NCBI GenBank assembly: GCA_902773425.1
Contig: CACYEP010000146.1
Span: forward strand, 1-33,860
Source of the DNA: an uncultured Erysipelotrichaceae bacterium
GTDB lineage: Bacteria > Bacillota_I > Bacilli_A > Erysipelotrichales > Erysipelotrichaceae
Direction of reading: 5' to 3'
DNA length: 33,860 nt
Each line of letters opens with the position of its first letter. Within the stretch, counting starts at the first letter, position 1. The notes beneath the pieces are model-generated. The model saw only the letters and a list, made by a program, of their open reading frames with translations, was not told the origin of the DNA and searched no databases. Positions 25,886 to 33,860 of this stretch are shown one piece after another. The position numbers were made by a program, and so were the translations under genes.

Positions 25886-25899
25886 CTCCTGAATCTTTT
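25871..25899 (+). terminator. Compact bidirectional terminator overlapping two gene ends
   Basis: AAGATTCAGGA (25871-25881) pairs perfectly with TCCTGAATCTT (25887-25897). The left arm encodes the last residues of the PAP2 protein, its TGA lies in the loop, and the adenosine deaminase stop abuts the right arm. A and T runs flank both sides. Confidence 0.85.
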
Positions 25900-26899
25900 A
25901 CTTCATCAGTTTACGGAGCTTTTCACGAAGTTCCGTTTTTGTTTTCTCATCCAAGAAGGCGGCATCCACGGCATTGTACGTGCACTGTTTCAGTTCGTTT
26001 TCCGTGATGCCGATCATCTCAAGCTGCGCATGTTCGTTGGAAAGGTCGGTTTTCGCGAAAATCATGTTGTCGGTGTTTAAGGTGATTTTTGCGCCGGAAC
26101 GAATCAGTTTCTTAACCGGATGATTCGCATAGTCCAGGGTGTCCTTGATGTTGGAAGTGACGCAGACTTCCAGAGGGATCTGCCGTTTGACAAGTTCTTC
26201 CAACAATTCCGGATCATCGGCCGCATTGACTCCGTGCCCGATCCGGTCCGCGCCGAAATCAAGCGCATCTTTCACATGTTCGGCAATTCCCATCTCGCCC
26301 GCATGCACCGTAAACGGAATACCCAGTTCTTTCGCAAGGCGGAAATACGGCGCGTATTCCTTGAAATCGCAATTGTTTTCGTATCCCGCAAGATCCAATC
26401 CTACGGCGCCTTTTCCCAAGAGTTCCCGGGTGACTTGAATGGTCTCCCGGTTTTCCGCATCATTGAACGCGGCGGAGTCCCTTTTGTGCATCAGACAGTT
26501 GATGATGCCGGTCTGAATCGAAGGAAAATTGATTTCGGCTGCTTTCGCTCTGTCAATCACGGCTTGAAGGGCTTCTTTTTGTGTTAAGCCACGTTTGGTG
26601 TGCTGCTGGGACGCAAATCGGATCTCGGCATAGATGATACCGCGTTTAGCCATGGTTTCCGTTAAGCGGTAGGATGCGTCAAATAGGTCCGCCCTTGTCT
26701 GAAGAATGTCACATACCAGTTCGAATTTTTTGATGCTTTCGGAACGGGTCATGAAGTTTCGCTTGTATAACATCTCATAGTATTCCTCAAACGTGCTGTC
26801 CGCGGGAATGATTTTCTGGCGCAAAGATGCTTTGTATGCCCAGTCAATGTTGAGCGATCCGTCCAGATGAATATGTAATTCGATGCGTGCAGTCTTCAT
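25898..26899 (-). CDS. add: Adenosine deaminase
   Basis: A 333-residue zinc hydrolase that deaminates adenosine (or deoxyadenosine) to inosine. ELHIHLDGSL gives the zinc-binding His9 and His11 and the substrate loop. FTVHAGEMG contains the third His and catalytic Glu region, IGHGVNA the next His, and LNTDN the zinc-binding Asp. Length is standard. The ATG at 26899 behind GGACGGTGG is preferred over an in-frame ATG 13 codons upstream, because the conserved N-terminus begins just after it. Adenine deaminase is a close relative and cannot be fully excluded. Divergent from the aro operon. Confidence 0.88.
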   Translation of the reverse strand: MKTARIELHIHLDGSLNIDWAYKASLRQKIIPADSTFEEYYEMLYKRNFMTRSESIKKFELVCDILQTRADLFDASYRLTETMAKRGIIYAEIRFASQQHTKRGLTQKEALQAVIDRAKAAEINFPSIQTGIINCLMHKRDSAAFNDAENRETIQVTRELLGKGAVGLDLAGYENNCDFKEYAPYFRLAKELGIPFTVHAGEMGIAEHVKDALDFGADRIGHGVNAADDPELLEELVKRQIPLEVCVTSNIKDTLDYANHPVKKLIRSGAKITLNTDNMIFAKTDLSNEHAQLEMIGITENELKQCTYNAVDAAFLDEKTKTELREKLRKLMK

Positions 26900-26943
26900 G
26901 ATCCACCGTCCTTTTCTACATTGTAGCGCCATCCGCAAGGAGT

Positions 26944-26959
26944 TTCTATCTTGATAGAA
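26944..26959. promoter_or_regulatory. Palindrome overlapping the aro -35 box, candidate operator
   Basis: TTCTATC-TT-GATAGAA is a perfect 7+7 inverted repeat. Its right half contains the -35 hexamer TTGATA of the aro promoter, so a bound repressor would block initiation. It lies in the add-aro divergent region and may serve both directions. Confidence 0.5.
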
Positions 26960-26979
26960 TCCTTTTTTAACGCTATACT
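26951..26979 (+). promoter_or_regulatory. aro operon promoter
   Basis: TTGATA (26951-26956), exactly 17 bases, then TATACT (26974-26979). Each hexamer matches consensus at five or four of six positions. Transcription should start near 26985-26987, that is, at the A of the leader-peptide ATG. Confidence 0.75.
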
Positions 26980-26985
26980 TTTCCC

Positions 26986-27027
26986 ATGAAACCTAACAAG
27001 AACTTCGCCTATTACTACGAAAGATAA
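26986..27027 (+). CDS. Aromatic leader peptide of the aro operon (13 codons)
   Basis: The frame encodes MKPNKNFAYYYER and stops at TAA. One Phe and three consecutive Tyr codons (27010-27018) in 13 codons, directly ahead of a shikimate/tyrosine operon, are what a charging-sensitive leader peptide should show. There is no Shine-Dalgarno sequence. The ATG coincides with the predicted transcription start, so translation would have to use a leaderless mRNA. Ribosomes waiting for Tyr-tRNA would cover GATAAC at 27023-27028, the sequence able to pair with GTTATC at 27066-27071. The reading is inference from sequence alone. Confidence 0.6.
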   Translation: MKPNKNFAYYYER

Positions 27028-27117
27028 CTCGGGCATATGATAATGCCCGCTTTGGTTTGCCTGGTGTTATCGATTGGATAGGTTCTCTCCCATACGGATA
27101 ACACCGTATGGTTTTTT
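27023..27117 (+). promoter_or_regulatory. Transcription attenuator of the aro operon
   Basis: Four pairings can be drawn. GATAAC (27023-27028, over the leader stop) with GTTATC (27066-27071). A local hairpin CGGGCAT/ATGCCCG (27030-27049). GGTGTTATC (27063-27071) with GATAACACC (27097-27105), nine perfect pairs. The terminator CCATACGG/CCGTATGG (27090-27111). The third and fourth exclude each other, and the first competes with the third. A ribosome stalled on the Tyr codons would hide GATAAC, let the antiterminator form and allow aro transcription. Confidence 0.65.
27090..27117 (+). terminator. Attenuator terminator before aroB
   Basis: CCATACGG (27090-27097) and CCGTATGG (27104-27111) form a perfect 8-bp stem with an ATAACA loop and six T. 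It lies upstream of, not after, the structural genes, only seven bases before the aroB ribosome site. Confidence 0.88.
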
Positions 27118-27137
27118 ATTTCAAAGGAGGATCGCGT

Positions 27138-28142
27138 ATGGTCATACCGGTGCACACAAATGCGAAAGATTACGAAATCATCTTCAAACGGGGAATCCTG
27201 CCGGAAGTATCGTCCTATCTTCCCGGAAATATCCGGGTCATGATCGTTACGGATGACGGCGTCCCGGATTTCTGGCTTGAATCTTTGACGGTTCAGTATC
27301 CCAAAGCTCCCGTCCATGTGATTCCTAACGGCGAAGCTTCCAAGAACTTTGATACGTACAAGGGTATTTTGGAAGATATGCTGGAACATCATCTGTCCCG
27401 CAGGGATTATCTGATTGCGCTGGGCGGAGGGGTTGTCGGTGATCTTACCGGATTCTGTGCCGCAACGTATATGCGCGGAATCTCCTGGATCAATATTCCG
27501 ACCACAACGTTATCGCAGATCGATTCATCCATCGGGGGAAAGACCGGTATTGATTTCGGAGGTGTCAAGAATTCCGTGGGTGCGTTCTGGCAGCCGGAAA
27601 AGGTATTCATTGACCCGGAAGTCCTGTCGACTTTGCCGCTTCGTCATTACCGTAACGGGATGGCGGAAGCTCTGAAGGCAGGCATGATCCGTGACCCGGA
27701 ATTGTTCGAACTGTTTGAAAACGGGGACATGATGGACAACGAGGAAGAAATCATCCGCCGTGCGCTGATGGTGAAAAAAGAAGTCGTAGAGAAAGATGAG
27801 AGGGAAGCCGGATTACGGAAGATCCTGAATTTCGGACATACGGCAGGTCATGCGTATGAGAGTTATTACGGATTTGATAAGTACCTTCACGGCGAATGTG
27901 TCGCGATGGGAATGATGAAGATGACAACCGATCCGGTTACAAAGGCCAGATTGAGAAAAGTATTGGAGAAGATGAATCTGCCGGTTTCGTGTGACGCGGA
28001 TCCGCTGAAAATTGCGGAATTCATTACGCATGACAAGAAAGCGGACCATGATCAGATCACGGTGGTGACTGTGTCGAAAATCGGAGATTGCAAGCTTGAA
28101 ACATGGACGACGGATGAGGTCGTCCGGAGGTGCCGGGTATGA
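27138..28142 (+). CDS. aroB: 3-dehydroquinate synthase
   Basis: AroB converts DAHP to 3-dehydroquinate using NAD and a divalent metal. The 334-residue product has ALGGGVVGDLTGFCAATYMRG (94-114), here given as ALGGGVVGDLTGF, for NAD binding. The phosphate/substrate block PTTTLSQIDSSIGGKTGID spans 121-139. Metal-binding His residues are in NFGHTAGHA and YLHGE. ATG 27138 follows AAAGGAGG with a six-base spacer; an in-frame earlier ATG at 27108 lies inside the terminator and is rejected. It is the first structural gene of the operon and overlaps aroC by four bases. Confidence 0.95.
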   Translation: MVIPVHTNAKDYEIIFKRGILPEVSSYLPGNIRVMIVTDDGVPDFWLESLTVQYPKAPVHVIPNGEASKNFDTYKGILEDMLEHHLSRRDYLIALGGGVVGDLTGFCAATYMRGISWINIPTTTLSQIDSSIGGKTGIDFGGVKNSVGAFWQPEKVFIDPEVLSTLPLRHYRNGMAEALKAGMIRDPELFELFENGDMMDNEEEIIRRALMVKKEVVEKDEREAGLRKILNFGHTAGHAYESYYGFDKYLHGECVAMGMMKMTTDPVTKARLRKVLEKMNLPVSCDADPLKIAEFITHDKKADHDQITVVTVSKIGDCKLETWTTDEVVRRCRV

Positions 28143-29236
28143 AAAACAGTTTCGGAAATGCGCTTTGCGTGACCTTATTCGGAGAGTCCCACGGGGATGC
28201 GGTCGGATGTGTTCTGGACGGCATTGCGCCGGGAATCAAAGTTGATGTTGACTTGATTCAAACCGAGATGGAAAAGCGCCGGGGAGGAAAAGAATACACC
28301 ACGCCGCGCAAGGAAGAGGACGTTCCGGTCTTTTTGTCCGGGGTAAAGGACGGATATACCGAGGGAACGCCGGTTTGCCTGATTATCCGGAATACAAACG
28401 CGCATTCCGCGGATTATTCGAAATTCAGGGATATGCCGCGCCCGGGACATGCGGATATGACCGCCGGATACAAGTATCGGGGATACGAAGATCTTCGCGG
28501 GGGAGGACATTTTTCGGGAAGACTGACGGCTGCGCTTGTTGCGGCAGGCGCATTGATCGAAGGCGCTCTTGCCGGAAAGGGAATCCGCATCGTTTCCCAT
28601 ATTGAATCCATCGGTGATGTGAAGGACCGCAGATTTGATGCGGATCATCCGGAAATTGATGCGCTGAACGGAAAAGACTTTCCGGTGCTGGATGAAGAAG
28701 CCGGCGAAAAGATGAAGGAAGTCATCCGCAAAGCGGCGGAAGAAAAAGATTCTGCCGGAGGAGTCATTGAAACCTGCGTTGCGGGATTGCCGGAAGGAAT
28801 CGGAGAACCATGGTTTGATACGTTAGAGAGTATGCTCGGACATATGGCATTGTCCGTGCCTGCCTGCAAGGGCATTGAATTCGGAGACGGTTTCGGACTC
28901 GCCGGGATGAAAGGTTCCGAAGCGAATGATCCGTGGATTCCGGAAGACGGGAAAATCCGCACGGCGTCCAACCATTGCGGAGGAATTGTCGGCGGCATCT
29001 CCGATGGTATGCCGGTGATCTTCCGCACGGTATTCAAACCGACCGCATCCATCGCCAAACCGCAGGAAACCCTGAACCGGAAGACCGGTAAGACAGAAGT
29101 TCTGGAAGTAACCGGAAGACATGATCCGTGTATTGCCGTACGTGCCGTACCGGTTATGAACGCGGTCAGTGCCTTGGTGATTGCGGATTTATTGACCCAA
29201 AGATACGGAAACCTTTGGCTCGGAGAAACGAAATGA
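28139..29236 (+). CDS. aroC: Chorismate synthase
   Basis: AroC makes chorismate from EPSP with reduced FMN. The 365-residue length is standard. GESHGDAVGCVLDG (15-28) is the signature start. RPGHADMTAGYKY, then GGGHFSGRLTAALVAAGA and KPTASIAKPQ are the other conserved blocks. ATG 28139 overlaps the aroB TGA; an in-frame ATG nine bases earlier is possible but less well placed behind CGGAGG. Its own stop overlaps the next start (ATGA at 29233). Confidence 0.96.
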   Translation: MKNSFGNALCVTLFGESHGDAVGCVLDGIAPGIKVDVDLIQTEMEKRRGGKEYTTPRKEEDVPVFLSGVKDGYTEGTPVCLIIRNTNAHSADYSKFRDMPRPGHADMTAGYKYRGYEDLRGGGHFSGRLTAALVAAGALIEGALAGKGIRIVSHIESIGDVKDRRFDADHPEIDALNGKDFPVLDEEAGEKMKEVIRKAAEEKDSAGGVIETCVAGLPEGIGEPWFDTLESMLGHMALSVPACKGIEFGDGFGLAGMKGSEANDPWIPEDGKIRTASNHCGGIVGGISDGMPVIFRTVFKPTASIAKPQETLNRKTGKTEVLEVTGRHDPCIAVRAVPVMNAVSALVIADLLTQRYGNLWLGETK

Positions 29237-30468
29237 AACTGGGATTGATCGGATATCCGTTAGGTCACAGCCGTTCTCCGGAAATTCATAAGTATCTGAC
29301 CGGTGAAGACTACCGTCTTTGGGAATTGAAGCCGGAAGATCTGGATGAATTCATGAAACGGAAGGACTTTGACGGGATCAATGTCACGATTCCCTACAAG
29401 GAGGCAGTTCTTCCGTATTTGGATGAGATCGAAGAAAATGCCGCAAAGATCGGTGCCGTCAACTGTATCGTGCATCAAAACGGGAAACTTACCGGCTATA
29501 ACACGGACTGTATGGGGTTTGCGGGAATGGTGCGTTCGCACGGAATTAATTTCGCAGGAAAAAACGTTGCGGTGCTGGGAACCGGCGGAGCTTCCAAGGC
29601 AGTCTTTGAAGCCGTCAAAGATCTTTCGGGCATTCCGTACCGCATCAGCCGTTCAAAAGATAAAGGCGATATGGATTATGCGGAGCTTTACGAACGCGAA
29701 GGCATGTTTTCGTACATCGTGAATACGACACCTGCCGGCATGTACCCGCATACGGACGAAGTTCCGTGCGATTTGTCGAAGTTCCTGCATCTTCAGGGGA
29801 TCATTGATATCATCGCCAATCCGTTATGCACGCATTGGATGCTGGAGGCAAAGCTGCGAGGCATTCCTGCCTTAGGCGGATGGGAAATGCTGGTAAGACA
29901 GGCATATTACGCGGATAAATGTTTCGGTCTTGAAGTCAGAAATCCGGACGCGGTTACCGGTTGTATCCGCGATTTGAAAAAGGCACAGATGAATACCGTG
30001 CTGATCGGGATGCCTTCTTCCGGCAAAACCACTCTCGGGAAGAAGCTGGCGGAAATCACCGGAAGGAACTTTATTGATCTGGATGAACGTGTCGTGTCGG
30101 ATACCGGCATGGAAATCAGACAAATCTTCGAACAGTACGGAGAAGATGCGTTTCGCGAGGCGGAAACCAAAGCCGTCACGGGGGTCAAGGATACGCCGGG
30201 GAATGTGATATCCTGCGGCGGGGGAATCATTAAGCGCAAACGCAATATGGAATATCTCAAGGAGCGCGGATTCATTGTATGGGTGCAACGCGATCTGGAA
30301 CTTCTTGAGCCGACAGAGGACAGACCGCTTTCTTCCGTGAGGGAAGATTTGGTACAATTATTACATGAGCGGAAACCGCTCTACGAAAAGTATGCGGACG
30401 CTGTTGTCCGCAACAATACATCCGTAGAGGATGTCATCGCGGAACTTCAGAAGATTCCGGAGGTATAA
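29233..30468 (+). CDS. Shikimate dehydrogenase-shikimate kinase fusion (AroE-AroK)
   Basis: One 411-residue chain carries two successive enzymes. Residues 1-250 are shikimate dehydrogenase: GHSRSP (11-16) binds shikimate, Lys56 in IPYKEA and Asp92 in YNTDCMGF are catalytic, and LGTGGASKAV (115-124) binds NADP. Residues about 253-411 are shikimate kinase: Walker A GMPSSGKTT (259-267), IDLDERV (281-287), CGGGI (328-332) and the lid Arg in EDRPL. No stop or frameshift separates them, and the linker (DLKKAQ) is very short. The chain reduces dehydroshikimate and then phosphorylates shikimate. It overlaps aroC by four bases. Confidence 0.94.
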   Translation: MKLGLIGYPLGHSRSPEIHKYLTGEDYRLWELKPEDLDEFMKRKDFDGINVTIPYKEAVLPYLDEIEENAAKIGAVNCIVHQNGKLTGYNTDCMGFAGMVRSHGINFAGKNVAVLGTGGASKAVFEAVKDLSGIPYRISRSKDKGDMDYAELYEREGMFSYIVNTTPAGMYPHTDEVPCDLSKFLHLQGIIDIIANPLCTHWMLEAKLRGIPALGGWEMLVRQAYYADKCFGLEVRNPDAVTGCIRDLKKAQMNTVLIGMPSSGKTTLGKKLAEITGRNFIDLDERVVSDTGMEIRQIFEQYGEDAFREAETKAVTGVKDTPGNVISCGGGIIKRKRNMEYLKERGFIVWVQRDLELLEPTEDRPLSSVREDLVQLLHERKPLYEKYADAVVRNNTSVEDVIAELQKIPEV

Positions 30469-30470
30469 CT

Positions 30471-31487
30471 ATGATTGTTACATTGAAGAAACAAACTCCT
30501 AAAACCGAAATCAACCGGCTGACCGGCTTGTTTGAAAGCCGGGGACTGAAGATTCATTTCAGCGAAGGGGACAATTATATTGTATTGGGTCTTGTCGGGG
30601 ATGCGACGCAGTTATCCGAACGGGACATTCTGGCCAACGAATGGGTATCCAATGTCCAGCGTGTCGGCGCACCGTACAAGCTTGCGAACCGCATGTTCCA
30701 TCCGGACGATACCGTGGTGGATGTCGGAGGGATCAAGATCGGCGGGCATGAAAAGATTGCCGTGATCGCCGGCCCCTGCGCAGTGGAATCCGAGGAAGCA
30801 ATTATTGAAGCTGCCAAGGAAGTGAAGGAAGCCGGCGCGGAACTGTTACGCGGCGGCGCCTACAAACCGCGCACATCTCCGTACTCTTTCCAGGGACTCG
30901 GCTATGAGGGTATCCTGGATCTTGCGAAGGCAAGAGAGATCACCGGACTTCCGGTTGTGACAGAGATCATGAGCGTGGATCATCTGGAGGAATTCGCGGA
31001 AAATGTCGACTTGATCCAGATCGGCGCCCGGAACATGCAGAACTTTGACCTTCTGAAAGAAGTCGGTAAACTGAAAAAGCCGGTGCTGCTGAAACGGGGA
31101 ATGTCCGCGACAATCGAGGAATGGATCATGGCGGCGGAATATATCATGGCATCGGGAAACCCGAATGTCATCTTCTGCGAAAGAGGAATCCGGACCTTTG
31201 AAAAATATACGCGGAATACTCTGGATCTCGCAGTGATTCCGTTATTGAAAGAGAAAACACATCTTCCGGTCATCATTGACCCGTCGCATGCGACAGGGGA
31301 CTGGAAGCTGATTGAACCTGTGGCTTTGGCGGCCATCGCAGCCGGCGCGGACGGATTGATGATTGAAGTGCATCCGCATCCGGAATGCGCGTTAAGCGAC
31401 GGGGCCCAGAGCTTGAAGCCTGCGAAGTTCGCAGAATTAATGAAGAAGGCGCGCAAAGTCGCCAACGCAGTCGGGAGAGATCTTTAA
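30471..31487 (+). CDS. aroF: 3-deoxy-7-phosphoheptulonate (DAHP) synthase
   Basis: This enzyme joins phosphoenolpyruvate and erythrose 4-phosphate, the entry step of the pathway. Residues 1 to about 70 form a ferredoxin-like regulatory domain as in Thermotoga DAHP synthase, where Tyr and Phe bind as feedback inhibitors. The barrel follows, with metal-binding Cys103 in AGPCAVES, KPRTSPYSFQG (132-142), LLKRGMSAT and IDPSHATGDW. At 338 residues it has the standard length for this subtype. Presence of the domain suggests that both activity and, through the attenuator, expression respond to aromatic amino acids. GGAGGT precedes the ATG; aroA starts at its stop (TAATG). Confidence 0.94.
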   Translation: MIVTLKKQTPKTEINRLTGLFESRGLKIHFSEGDNYIVLGLVGDATQLSERDILANEWVSNVQRVGAPYKLANRMFHPDDTVVDVGGIKIGGHEKIAVIAGPCAVESEEAIIEAAKEVKEAGAELLRGGAYKPRTSPYSFQGLGYEGILDLAKAREITGLPVVTEIMSVDHLEEFAENVDLIQIGARNMQNFDLLKEVGKLKKPVLLKRGMSATIEEWIMAAEYIMASGNPNVIFCERGIRTFEKYTRNTLDLAVIPLLKEKTHLPVIIDPSHATGDWKLIEPVALAAIAAGADGLMIEVHPHPECALSDGAQSLKPAKFAELMKKARKVANAVGRDL

Positions 31488-32764
31488 TGAAAGTTCGCAT
31501 CGGTCAAAGAAAGACATCCAGTAATTCTACGGTATCGATTCCTGCGGGAAAATCTACATCACACAGGGTTTTGATTGCGGCTTCTCTGGCAAAGGGAAGA
31601 TCTTTGATCCGCAACATTTCCCAGAATGATGATGTTTTCGCAACTTCGAGATGTCTTCGCGAGGCCGGAACAGTCATTGTCCGTCATGACAATTCCGCGG
31701 AAGTATTCGGATTGCAGAACCCCGAATCCGACAGAGAAATATTGTTGGATGCGGGAGAATCCGGAAGCACTCTGCGCTTTTTGATTCCGGTGCTGATGAA
31801 TGAACACCGCACCTGTGTTTGGACAGGACACGGCAGACTGATGGAACGTCCGATGGATATTTATGAAGAACTGTTCGAGGCCCAGAAGATTCAATTCCGC
31901 AAAGAAGGAAAGATCTGGGAAATCCGCGGAAGACTGCGCCCGGGGGAATACGTGATCCCGGGGAATGTATCCTCGCAGTTTATCTCGGGATTATTGTTTG
32001 AACTTCCGCGTCTGGCCGGAGATTCCGTAATCCGCATCACCGGAAAGTTCGAGTCGCAATCCTATGTCCGGTTGACTGAAAAAGCGTTATCTTATGCGGG
32101 TATCACCGTGAAGGATGAAGGAAATATCATTCATATCCCGGGCAATCAGGTCTACAAACCGTTTGAGACTACGGTGGACGGGGATGATTCAAGCGCGGCG
32201 TTTTTCGGCGTATTGGCGGCTATTACCGGAAAACCGGTGACGGTATTAGGAATTGCGCACGATTCGGTTCAGCCGGACCACGTGATTTTTGAAATATTGA
32301 AACGAGCGGGACTGGAAGTTGTTCCGGTGGATGACGGCTACAAATTCCTTCCGGGAAAAGAATTAAAACCTCTGAAGGAAGATCTGTCGGATTGCCCGGA
32401 TCTCGGACCGGCATTATTCGCCCTGGCAGCGAGGATTCCCGGGAAGTCGGAATTTACGGGAACTGCCAGACTCAGATTCAAGGAGTCGGACCGTATTGCG
32501 TCCATGAAGGAAGAATTGGGCAAGCTTGGCTGTAAGCTGACGGATATGGAAAACTCAGTGACGGTTTACGGAGGATCCAAACTGCACGGGAATGTGTCCG
32601 TGGAAAGCCATAACGACCACCGGATCGTCATGGCCATGAGCGTGCTGGCTTCGGCATTGGATGAACCGGTGGATGTGGACGGCGCGGATTGCGTTTCCAA
32701 GAGTTTCCCGGAATTCTTCAACCGCCTGGAAAAGGCCGGCGTGGAGGTGACGTATTATGATTAG
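31487..32764 (+). CDS. aroA: EPSP synthase (3-phosphoshikimate 1-carboxyvinyltransferase)
   Basis: AroA adds enolpyruvate from PEP to shikimate 3-phosphate. The 425-residue product begins with a basic strand, then PAGKSTSHRVLIAASLA (19-35) with the PEP-binding Lys22. DAGESGSTLRFLIPVL is the second family signature and RFKESDRI, SHNDHRIVMAMSV the C-terminal ones. The loop equivalent to the glyphosate-binding G-x-A motif reads GESGSTLRF, with no further inference drawn. ATG 31487 overlaps the aroF stop by one base and replaces a longer in-frame start at 31385 that would run inside aroF. Confidence 0.95.
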   Translation: MKVRIGQRKTSSNSTVSIPAGKSTSHRVLIAASLAKGRSLIRNISQNDDVFATSRCLREAGTVIVRHDNSAEVFGLQNPESDREILLDAGESGSTLRFLIPVLMNEHRTCVWTGHGRLMERPMDIYEELFEAQKIQFRKEGKIWEIRGRLRPGEYVIPGNVSSQFISGLLFELPRLAGDSVIRITGKFESQSYVRLTEKALSYAGITVKDEGNIIHIPGNQVYKPFETTVDGDDSSAAFFGVLAAITGKPVTVLGIAHDSVQPDHVIFEILKRAGLEVVPVDDGYKFLPGKELKPLKEDLSDCPDLGPALFALAARIPGKSEFTGTARLRFKESDRIASMKEELGKLGCKLTDMENSVTVYGGSKLHGNVSVESHNDHRIVMAMSVLASALDEPVDVDGADCVSKSFPEFFNRLEKAGVEVTYYD

Positions 32765-33611
32765 CACCGGCTCGAAAATAACAATTGTCGGCCTCGGACT
32801 TCTCGGGGGAAGCTATGCCAAGGGATTGCACGATGCGGGATATACCGTCTATGGGATTGATATCGATCCCAAGGCAATCGATTACGCGATTGCGATGAAT
32901 TGGATCAAGGACGGAAGTGAGGATCCTTCGTTATGCGAGGGAAGCGACATCATTATTTCCGCCTTATATCCGCGCACATTCATCAGCTGGGTCAAAGATA
33001 ACCAGAAATATTTCAAACCAGGCTCCATCCTGACTGACGTGACCGGCATCAAGCGGGAAACCGTAAAGGAACTGGCGGAGATCTTACGGCCGGATGTGGA
33101 ATACATCGCATGCCACCCGATGGCCGGACGCGAACAGAAAGGCATTCGCTTTTCCGATCCGGAACTGTTCAGGAAGGCAAATTTCATCATCGTGCCGACA
33201 GAGAAAAACACGGAACGTGCGATTCAAACTGCGGAAGATCTTGCGGAAATCTTACACTTCAGGAAGGTGTCCAAACTGTCTCCGGAAGAACATGATGAAG
33301 TCATCGGGTTTGTGTCTCAGCTTTGTCATGTGATTGCGGTAGCGTTGATGAATGTCGGGGACAATCCCAGGTTGGTGGATTATACCGGGGACAGTTTCCG
33401 TGATTTGACGCGCATTGCGGATATCAATGAAGATTTATGGCCGGAATTGTTTATTTGCAATAAAGATTATCTGGTTGCGGAAATCGACAAATTGGTTGAT
33501 AAACTGAAGGATTACCAGGAATGGATCGATACCGAAAATGTCGAAGAAATGAAAAAGGCCATGATTGAAGCCGCGGGCCGCAGAAGATTGTTCGGGAGGA
33601 GTTCCAAATGA
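32757..33611 (+). CDS. tyrA: Prephenate dehydrogenase
   Basis: TyrA oxidises and decarboxylates prephenate to 4-hydroxyphenylpyruvate, the tyrosine precursor. The 284-residue protein has the NAD-binding GLGLLGGSYAKGL (12-24), the acidic IDIDP at the end of strand 2, and HPMAGRE (about 119-125) with the catalytic His. FVSQLCHVIAVAL and FRDLTRIAD follow in the dimerisation domain. There is no ACT domain, so feedback control by tyrosine would have to come from elsewhere. It overlaps aroA by eight bases and aroQ by four. Confidence 0.94.
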   Translation: MISTGSKITIVGLGLLGGSYAKGLHDAGYTVYGIDIDPKAIDYAIAMNWIKDGSEDPSLCEGSDIIISALYPRTFISWVKDNQKYFKPGSILTDVTGIKRETVKELAEILRPDVEYIACHPMAGREQKGIRFSDPELFRKANFIIVPTEKNTERAIQTAEDLAEILHFRKVSKLSPEEHDEVIGFVSQLCHVIAVALMNVGDNPRLVDYTGDSFRDLTRIADINEDLWPELFICNKDYLVAEIDKLVDKLKDYQEWIDTENVEEMKKAMIEAAGRRRLFGRSSK

Positions 33612-33860
33612 AAGTCATGATTATCAACGGCCCGAATCTGAATATGATCGGGATCCGGGAACCGGGGATTTACGGGACCAAGACCTACGCCGACCTGAAA
33701 GAACTCTTGGAATCGGAGGGAAAAAAGCGCGGGGCGGAAGTTTCCGTGCGGCAATCCAACCATGAAGGGGACCTGGTCGATTGGATCCAGGAAGCTTATT
33801 TTGAAAAGTACGACGGAATCATCATCAATCCCGGGGCATATACGCATACCAGTATCGCAA
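33608..33860 (+). CDS. aroQ: Type II 3-dehydroquinate dehydratase (partial, cut by window end)
   Basis: The first 84 residues are present, beginning MKVMIINGPNLNMIG. REPGIYGTKT carries the catalytic Arg and Tyr of the flexible lid, SNHEGDLVDWI the conserved Glu, and NPGAYTHTSIA the substrate-binding Asn and His region. Type II enzymes are ~145-150 residues, so a little under half is missing beyond the window. It fills the step between AroB and AroE, completing all seven shikimate steps in this operon. Its ATG overlaps the tyrA TGA. Confidence 0.95.
   Translation, partial: MKVMIINGPNLNMIGIREPGIYGTKTYADLKELLESEGKKRGAEVSVRQSNHEGDLVDWIQEAYFEKYDGIIINPGAYTHTSIA

Follow-up and report, generated by a model that had tools for sequence, protein, structure and literature searches.

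Shikimate operon of the window

The window (the whole 33,860-nt stretch of DNA analysed here) comes from the genome of a gut bacterium; among named organisms, those nearest to it are Erysipelotrichaceae, for example Lactimicrobium and Solobacterium. It carries on its forward strand a set of shikimate pathway genes in the order aroB-aroC-aroEK-DAHP synthase-aroA-tyrA-aroQ. The first of these, aroB (3-dehydroquinate synthase, 27138-28142; TIGR01357 above cut-off), is preceded by the ribosome-binding site AAAGGAGG (27123-27130). It is followed by aroC (chorismate synthase, 28130-29236), an aroE-aroK fusion (29128-30468), the DAHP synthase gene (30471-31487), aroA (EPSP synthase, 31385-32764), tyrA (prephenate dehydrogenase family, 32757-33611) and aroQ (type II 3-dehydroquinate dehydratase, 33608-33859), the last being truncated by the contig end. 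The bounds of aroC, aroEK and aroA are those of the ORFs; the real start of aroC is probably slightly downstream and that of aroA probably at ~31520. Shikimate dehydrogenase and shikimate kinase share a single reading frame at 29128-30468. As the genes of the operon abut or overlap, aroB through aroQ are likely to form one transcript. An adenosine deaminase family gene (25898-26938, reverse strand) is divergent from the promoter described below.

Leader frame and promoter

Upstream of aroB, a putative sigma-A type promoter was identified on the forward strand (TTGATA at 26951-26956, a spacer of 17 nt and TATACT at 26974-26979; 10/12 matches), the layout of which is shared by the leaders of relatives. 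It is followed by a leader ORF of 13 codons (26986-27027, forward strand; ATG at 26986, TAA at 27025-27027) with the predicted product MKPNKNFAYYYER. Its codons are ATG AAA CCT AAC AAG AAC TTC GCC TAT TAC TAC GAA AGA TAA, giving the aromatic run FAYYY with Phe at 27004 and Tyr at 27010, 27013 and 27016. The amino acids that such a leader would sense are made by the genes behind it, namely the shikimate pathway and tyrA.

The -10 box of the window lies exactly 6 nt from the ATG. This distance recurs in 11 further leaders, forming a sharp peak among 65, and other leaders are spaced 15-24 nt from the -10 box, often with GAGG. Because the distance is only 6 nt, +1 should be the A of the ATG, which implies a leader mRNA predicted to be leaderless, with its own AUG as the 5' end.

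RNA elements of the leader

All RNA elements lie on the forward strand. The sequence GATAAC over the Arg and stop codons (region 0, 27023-27028) is an exact 6-pair complement of GTTATC at 27066-27071. A hairpin (A:B, 27030-27049) is formed by seven pairs between 27030-27036 and 27043-27049; it is probably an RNA polymerase pause hairpin, and its 5' arm falls under a ribosome positioned at the stop codon. The loop and 3' arm of this hairpin contain region B (GATAATGCC, 27039-27047). Region C (GGTGTTATC, 27063-27071) is the 5' strand of the antiterminator and the target of 0, B and D, while region D (GATAACACC, 27097-27105), lying within the loop and stem of the terminator, is its 3' strand; the two pair at all nine of nine positions. 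An intrinsic terminator (27090-27117; stem of eight pairs, 27090-27097 with 27104-27111, T run at 27112-27117) is located between the leader and the first structural gene. The window leader folds more stably than its shuffles (z -2.9).

An earlier note on this DNA had read the region as a leader-peptide attenuator that responds to Phe and Tyr and controls the shikimate operon, and the parts it described (promoter, FAYYY frame, hairpin, antiterminator, terminator and GATAAC/GTTATC) were all recovered in the sequence at their given positions. Missing from its list of elements was the pairing of B with C (27039-27047 with 27063-27071), which comprises nine pairs and is absent from exact-match searches because two of these are G-U.

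Occurrence of Phe/Tyr leaders before aroB

Of 273 Erysipelotrichaceae genomes, aroB was detected in 138, and the sequence 5' of the gene was inspected at 128 loci. Once four duplicate loci were excluded, 124 flanks remained; in these a short frame was sought in which four or more of six codons specify Phe or Tyr and behind which a terminator lies. Such a combination precedes aroB at 70/124 loci, compared with 0-3/124 in ten dinucleotide-shuffled sets and 4 on the reverse strand, so that the arrangement noted in the window is not one of chance. Among all amino-acid pairs, F+Y ranks first in this detector (next L+Y, 44). The reading of an ordinary intergenic terminator beside a chance short frame, terminators alone being commonplace, is refuted by this conservation and by covarying alternative stems, and its probability is negligible.

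Across 61 distinct leaders there are 336 Phe/Tyr codons (Tyr 190, Phe 146) and no Trp codon, with the synonymous codons TTT/TTC and TAT/TAC mixed. F or Y predominates at positions -2 to -7 relative to the stop, and Arg at position -1. Codons for the pathway products are thus enriched both in the window (FAYYY) and in these 61 Tyr/Phe leaders, the translation of which is predicted. Sensing of Trp was rejected, as the leaders lack Trp codons and no member of the trpE/pabB family was found in the window's genome. This genome is 88% complete, and neither prephenate dehydratase nor the chorismate-binding (trpE/pabB) family was found in it. A lack of Trp synthesis would agree with a leader blind to Trp, but the absence may stem from incomplete assembly.

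A covariance model of the post-stop RNA, built without the leader codons (R1), was run against genomes of the family and a sample drawn from across the class. Strong matches are essentially confined to Erysipelotrichaceae; beyond the family, the class-wide sample gave marginal matches only. Taking R1 matches and aroB-derived loci together, the RNA type of the window is present in ~49 genomes of 11 genera, and the attenuator occurs in only part of the 138 aroB-carrying genomes of the family. Two strong R1 matches lie outside the set gathered through aroB, both with aromatic leaders: L187 (leader MRLSGYTYFYFIFR), located at a contig end, and L185 (G020:C51; leader MIKLDKKGFYYFYYR), 5' of a separate DAHP synthase gene. 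The latter suggests that this attenuator type moves between pathway genes.

Weak R1 matches in other genomes, at L188, L190-L192, L194 and L198 (E ~1e-4 to 1e-2), were set aside as non-members. They precede amino-acid ABC transporter-like genes and have no aromatic frame; these loci have a conserved upstream RNA in common, which looks like another, known riboswitch class sharing the terminator.

A second architecture, in which F/Y leaders are followed by a different downstream RNA, was found in ~23 genomes of 13 genera (among its loci L012, L020, L092, L093, L105, L110, L111, L117, L121, L123, L124, L131, L138, L141 and L146). Several of these leaders also lie 6 nt from the -10 box. Equilibrium folding showed a switch in 0/18 of them.

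At several loci (L007, L055, L059, L060, L064, L067, L078, L081 and L085), aroB begins a few bases after the end of pheA (prephenate dehydratase). No attenuator is present between the two genes there, and none displaced upstream of pheA was found in the stretches fetched.

Leaders that keep the terminator and have lost the reading frame, which the earlier note had regarded as evidence against its model, do exist. The aromatic frame is missing in four genomes of genus g67 (G234-G237; L097, L099, L101 and L103), where hairpin- and terminator-like sequence is kept, and in L113 and L114 of genus g19, where the terminator and portions of the hairpin likewise persist; a further genome of g67 (G233) and a further locus of g19 (L017) have the frame. 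R1 matches L097 at E=0.005 and gives no match at L099, L101, L103, L113 and L114. As these loci are a minority, stand beside intact relatives and have a degraded RNA as well, they are read as apparent decay of the attenuator.

Covariation of the alternative stems

The earlier note had proposed a comparison of related leaders for conserved aromatic codons and covarying stems, and its attenuator came through this comparison well. The window was aligned with close relatives (33 sequences in all), which showed conserved segments covering the stop codon and following it. Segment 0, AGATAR, spans the last codon and the stop; A and B form the hairpin, C is GGCATTATCT, and D and E form the terminator. 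For 0:C, pairing holds in 89.6% of cells and 17 cells show double changes (0/500 in shuffles, relatedness ignored), and the extended 0:C helix covaries in relatives. For C:D, 95.9% of cells are paired with 15 double-change cells, and A:B and D:E jointly reach 89.7% with 44 double-change cells (0/500, relatedness ignored). Of the terminator cells, 98.6% are paired, and relatives show double changes in 5/9 pairs. For B:C, 96.1% of cells are paired and double-change covariation is slight (3 cells in A1, 21/500). When the partner strand is shifted by 1-3 columns, pairing falls to ~17-49%. The mutual exclusivity of antiterminator and terminator claimed for the window is thereby backed by covariation of both C:D and D:E.

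Folding with ribosome positions

The window was folded with ribosome-covered bases held unpaired, the footprint being assumed to extend 12 nt beyond the first base of the A site. With no ribosome, the terminator forms at 0.99 and 0:C makes up only ~5% of the ensemble. In this fold, AACCTA (26990-26995) pairs with TAGGTT (27079-27084). The earlier note had listed this pair as a competitor that weakened the model; the pairing is present, but it appears to aid the ribosome-free terminator and is probably specific to the window. With the ribosome stalled, C:D forms at 0.79 when the Phe codon is in the A site and at 0.73, 0.93 and 0.90 for the first, second and third Tyr codons. With the ribosome at the stop codon, B:C forms at 0.996 and the terminator at 0.99.

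Among relatives the result is weaker, as full-length equilibrium folding gave a clear switch between the stalled and stop states in only 13/47. Truncated transcripts were used as a proxy for co-transcriptional folding. In these the antiterminator (capture of D) forms at 0.94 when stalled versus 0.33 in shuffled sequences, and drops partially at the stop codon (mean 0.64), with a full switch in 11/41; for the window the drop is small, from 0.90 stalled to 0.84 at stop. Attenuation is a kinetic process, so equilibrium folding has limited power to support or contradict it.

Proposed mechanism and alternatives

The computed results comprise the parts themselves, conserved Phe/Tyr codons with Trp absent, covarying stems 0:C, A:B, C:D and D:E, the conserved complementarity of B and C and the folding states of the window; from these we infer the steps of stalling, pausing and read-through. 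Taken together, the comparative evidence supports the earlier assignment of a Phe/Tyr leader-peptide attenuator to this shikimate operon, and the sequence data make it very probable that a ribosome-mediated transcription attenuator links transcription of the operon to how much Tyr-tRNA and Phe-tRNA is supplied.

In the proposed mechanism, strand C (27063-27071) would be the switch for which the look-alike strands 0, B and D compete. When charged Tyr-tRNA (or Phe-tRNA) is scarce, the ribosome would stall in FAYYY and cover region 0; hairpin A:B could still fold, leaving C free to pair with D. Formation of C:D would block the terminator and RNA polymerase would continue into aroB. With enough charged tRNA, the ribosome would reach the stop codon and cover region 0 together with the 5' arm of the hairpin, B would be freed to capture C, and D would join the terminator, leading to termination. 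With no ribosome, region 0 (and in the window also AACCTA/TAGGTT) would tie up the leader, so that termination would again be favoured.

The earlier note had assigned capture of C to GATAAC alone. Region 0 (27023-27028) is a second capture strand for C, taking it when uncovered by the ribosome, and its covariation bears this part of the claim out; for termination while the ribosome sits at the stop codon, capture of 27063-27071 by 27039-27047 is the better explanation, so that B:C, and not the six-pair GATAAC alone, is likely the route in that state. An alternative form of the same attenuator, in which fed-state termination proceeds only via 0:C after ribosome release and B:C is idle, draws on the clear covariation of 0:C (the 17 double-change cells and the permutation test). 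However, region 0 would be covered by a ribosome at the stop codon, and B:C is paired in 96% of cells and forms nearly completely in the window when the stop state is masked. The loop GAT is near-invariant in relatives though unpaired in A:B, an invariance accounted for by B:C, which uses these bases. In addition, the cognate 0:C, B:C and D:C duplexes are each stabler than non-cognate ones (45 loci; 0/2000 permutations each, relatedness ignored). The form with an idle B:C is therefore considered unlikely.

The leader peptide itself might act by nascent-peptide arrest, as in TnaC and ErmCL, responding to free Tyr/Phe or a drug and not to a shortage of charged tRNA. A C-terminal FR-stop is indeed common, 39 of the unique leaders carrying Arg at -1, but this terminal R is replaced elsewhere by G, E, S, C, F or L, and F and Y swap freely at each position. 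Moreover, region C changes together with the leader end: in L051 the leader ends CTC GGA TGA and region C carries ATCCGA, and in L088/L090 GGATAG is matched by TTATCC in C. This co-change indicates that the constraint on the leader end is one of base pairing, and arrest by the peptide is very unlikely.

A T-box, riboswitch or protein-binding leader sensing aromatic compounds without translation would be in keeping with the frequency of such elements in Bacillota and with the T-boxes 5' of the same genes in a sister family. The Rfam search gave no match to T-box RF00230 in the window or leader, and none to amino-acid leader families (e.g. RF00514 His leader) at the gathering cut-off or at E up to 1, the sole match at E up to 1 being a chance one to an unrelated family. 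The RNA is ~132 nt without a conserved aptamer-like block, whereas the in-frame Phe/Tyr codons are conserved, and such a leader is accordingly highly improbable.

One extension of the preferred ribosome-mediated attenuator is more tentative. In it, a leaderless attenuator would work by three-way strand mimicry, with three copies of a short sequence (over the stop codon, in the hairpin loop and in the terminator loop) set against a single strand. This is possible, though we lean somewhat against it. If true, only ribosomes loading on the bare 5' end could read the leader, the switch would report the capacity for leaderless initiation besides Tyr/Phe supply, and the mimicry would give separate outputs for no ribosome, a stalled ribosome and a finished ribosome.

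Comparison with known attenuators

Like trpL, pheL and hisL of Enterobacteria, the window has a short leader rich in codons for the pathway product, a pause-type hairpin, an exclusive antiterminator and terminator, and a biosynthetic operon downstream. Unlike these, its family has no match to an Rfam model, the codons are mixed Phe/Tyr without Trp, three strands (0, B and D) compete for C with one of them over the stop codon, the window's attenuator is predicted to be leaderless, and the host lineage is Bacillota. The earlier note's statement that T-box or TRAP control is usual in Bacillota holds as background, but leader-peptide attenuation is already known there (PMC2965389, PMC5794164, PMC9413887).

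In the available text of Ashniev et al. 2022 (PMC9413887), his attenuators are predicted in Erysipelotrichales, Peptostreptococcaceae and the Bacillus cereus group. Those of Erysipelotrichales belong to the same order as the window and to lineages without a His T-box, but differ in having His codons and a his operon; that text contains no aromatic or shikimate attenuator. The predicted uORFC-13-1 motif 5' of aroF in Acholeplasma (PMC8632094), compared here by its published description only, likewise has a predicted Phe-coding short frame, a promoter and a terminator before a shikimate gene. Unlike the window family, it carries an RBS and one or more Phe codons, precedes aroF only, and is restricted to Acholeplasma and environmental sequences. 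The leucine-rich attenuator of S. aureus ilv-leu is an experimentally supported case in a biosynthetic operon of Bacillota (PMC5794164), differing in its Leu/Ile codons and its RNA. A leaderless attenuator RNA is known from S. meliloti trpL (rnTrpL), the 5' end of which is the ATG of the leader peptide (PMC7298713); it differs in sensing Trp, in its alphaproteobacterial host and in its RNA, and trans roles have been shown for rnTrpL. The mechanism type is thus known, and an aromatic attenuator family across Erysipelotrichaceae appears to be undescribed so far: no report of one was found in the open-access literature searched, and priority is uncertain with respect to subscription papers, which lay outside the search.

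Leader peptides and T-boxes in Erysipelotrichales

Ten T-box matches (L037-L046) were identified in the window's genome, most of them before aminoacyl-tRNA synthetase genes. These include tyrS and pheS (hmmscan) as well as valS, thrS, hisS, metG, alaS, ileS and leuS (from translations); one match (L043) lies near an ABC/ECF-type ATPase gene. T-boxes scoring above the Rfam cut-off lie 5' of the aroB region at three loci of the sister family f2 (L029, L032 and L035). The shikimate pathway is therefore associated with a T-box in that family and with a leader peptide in Erysipelotrichaceae, a sharp contrast within one order, while the window's genome retains T-boxes on tyrS and pheS. The swap of one tRNA-sensing system for another becomes directly testable here. 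Bacillota gain a well-supported family of aromatic leader-peptide attenuators, and the predicted leaderless start together with three rival look-alike strands would offer a compact model of RNA folding set by ribosome position.
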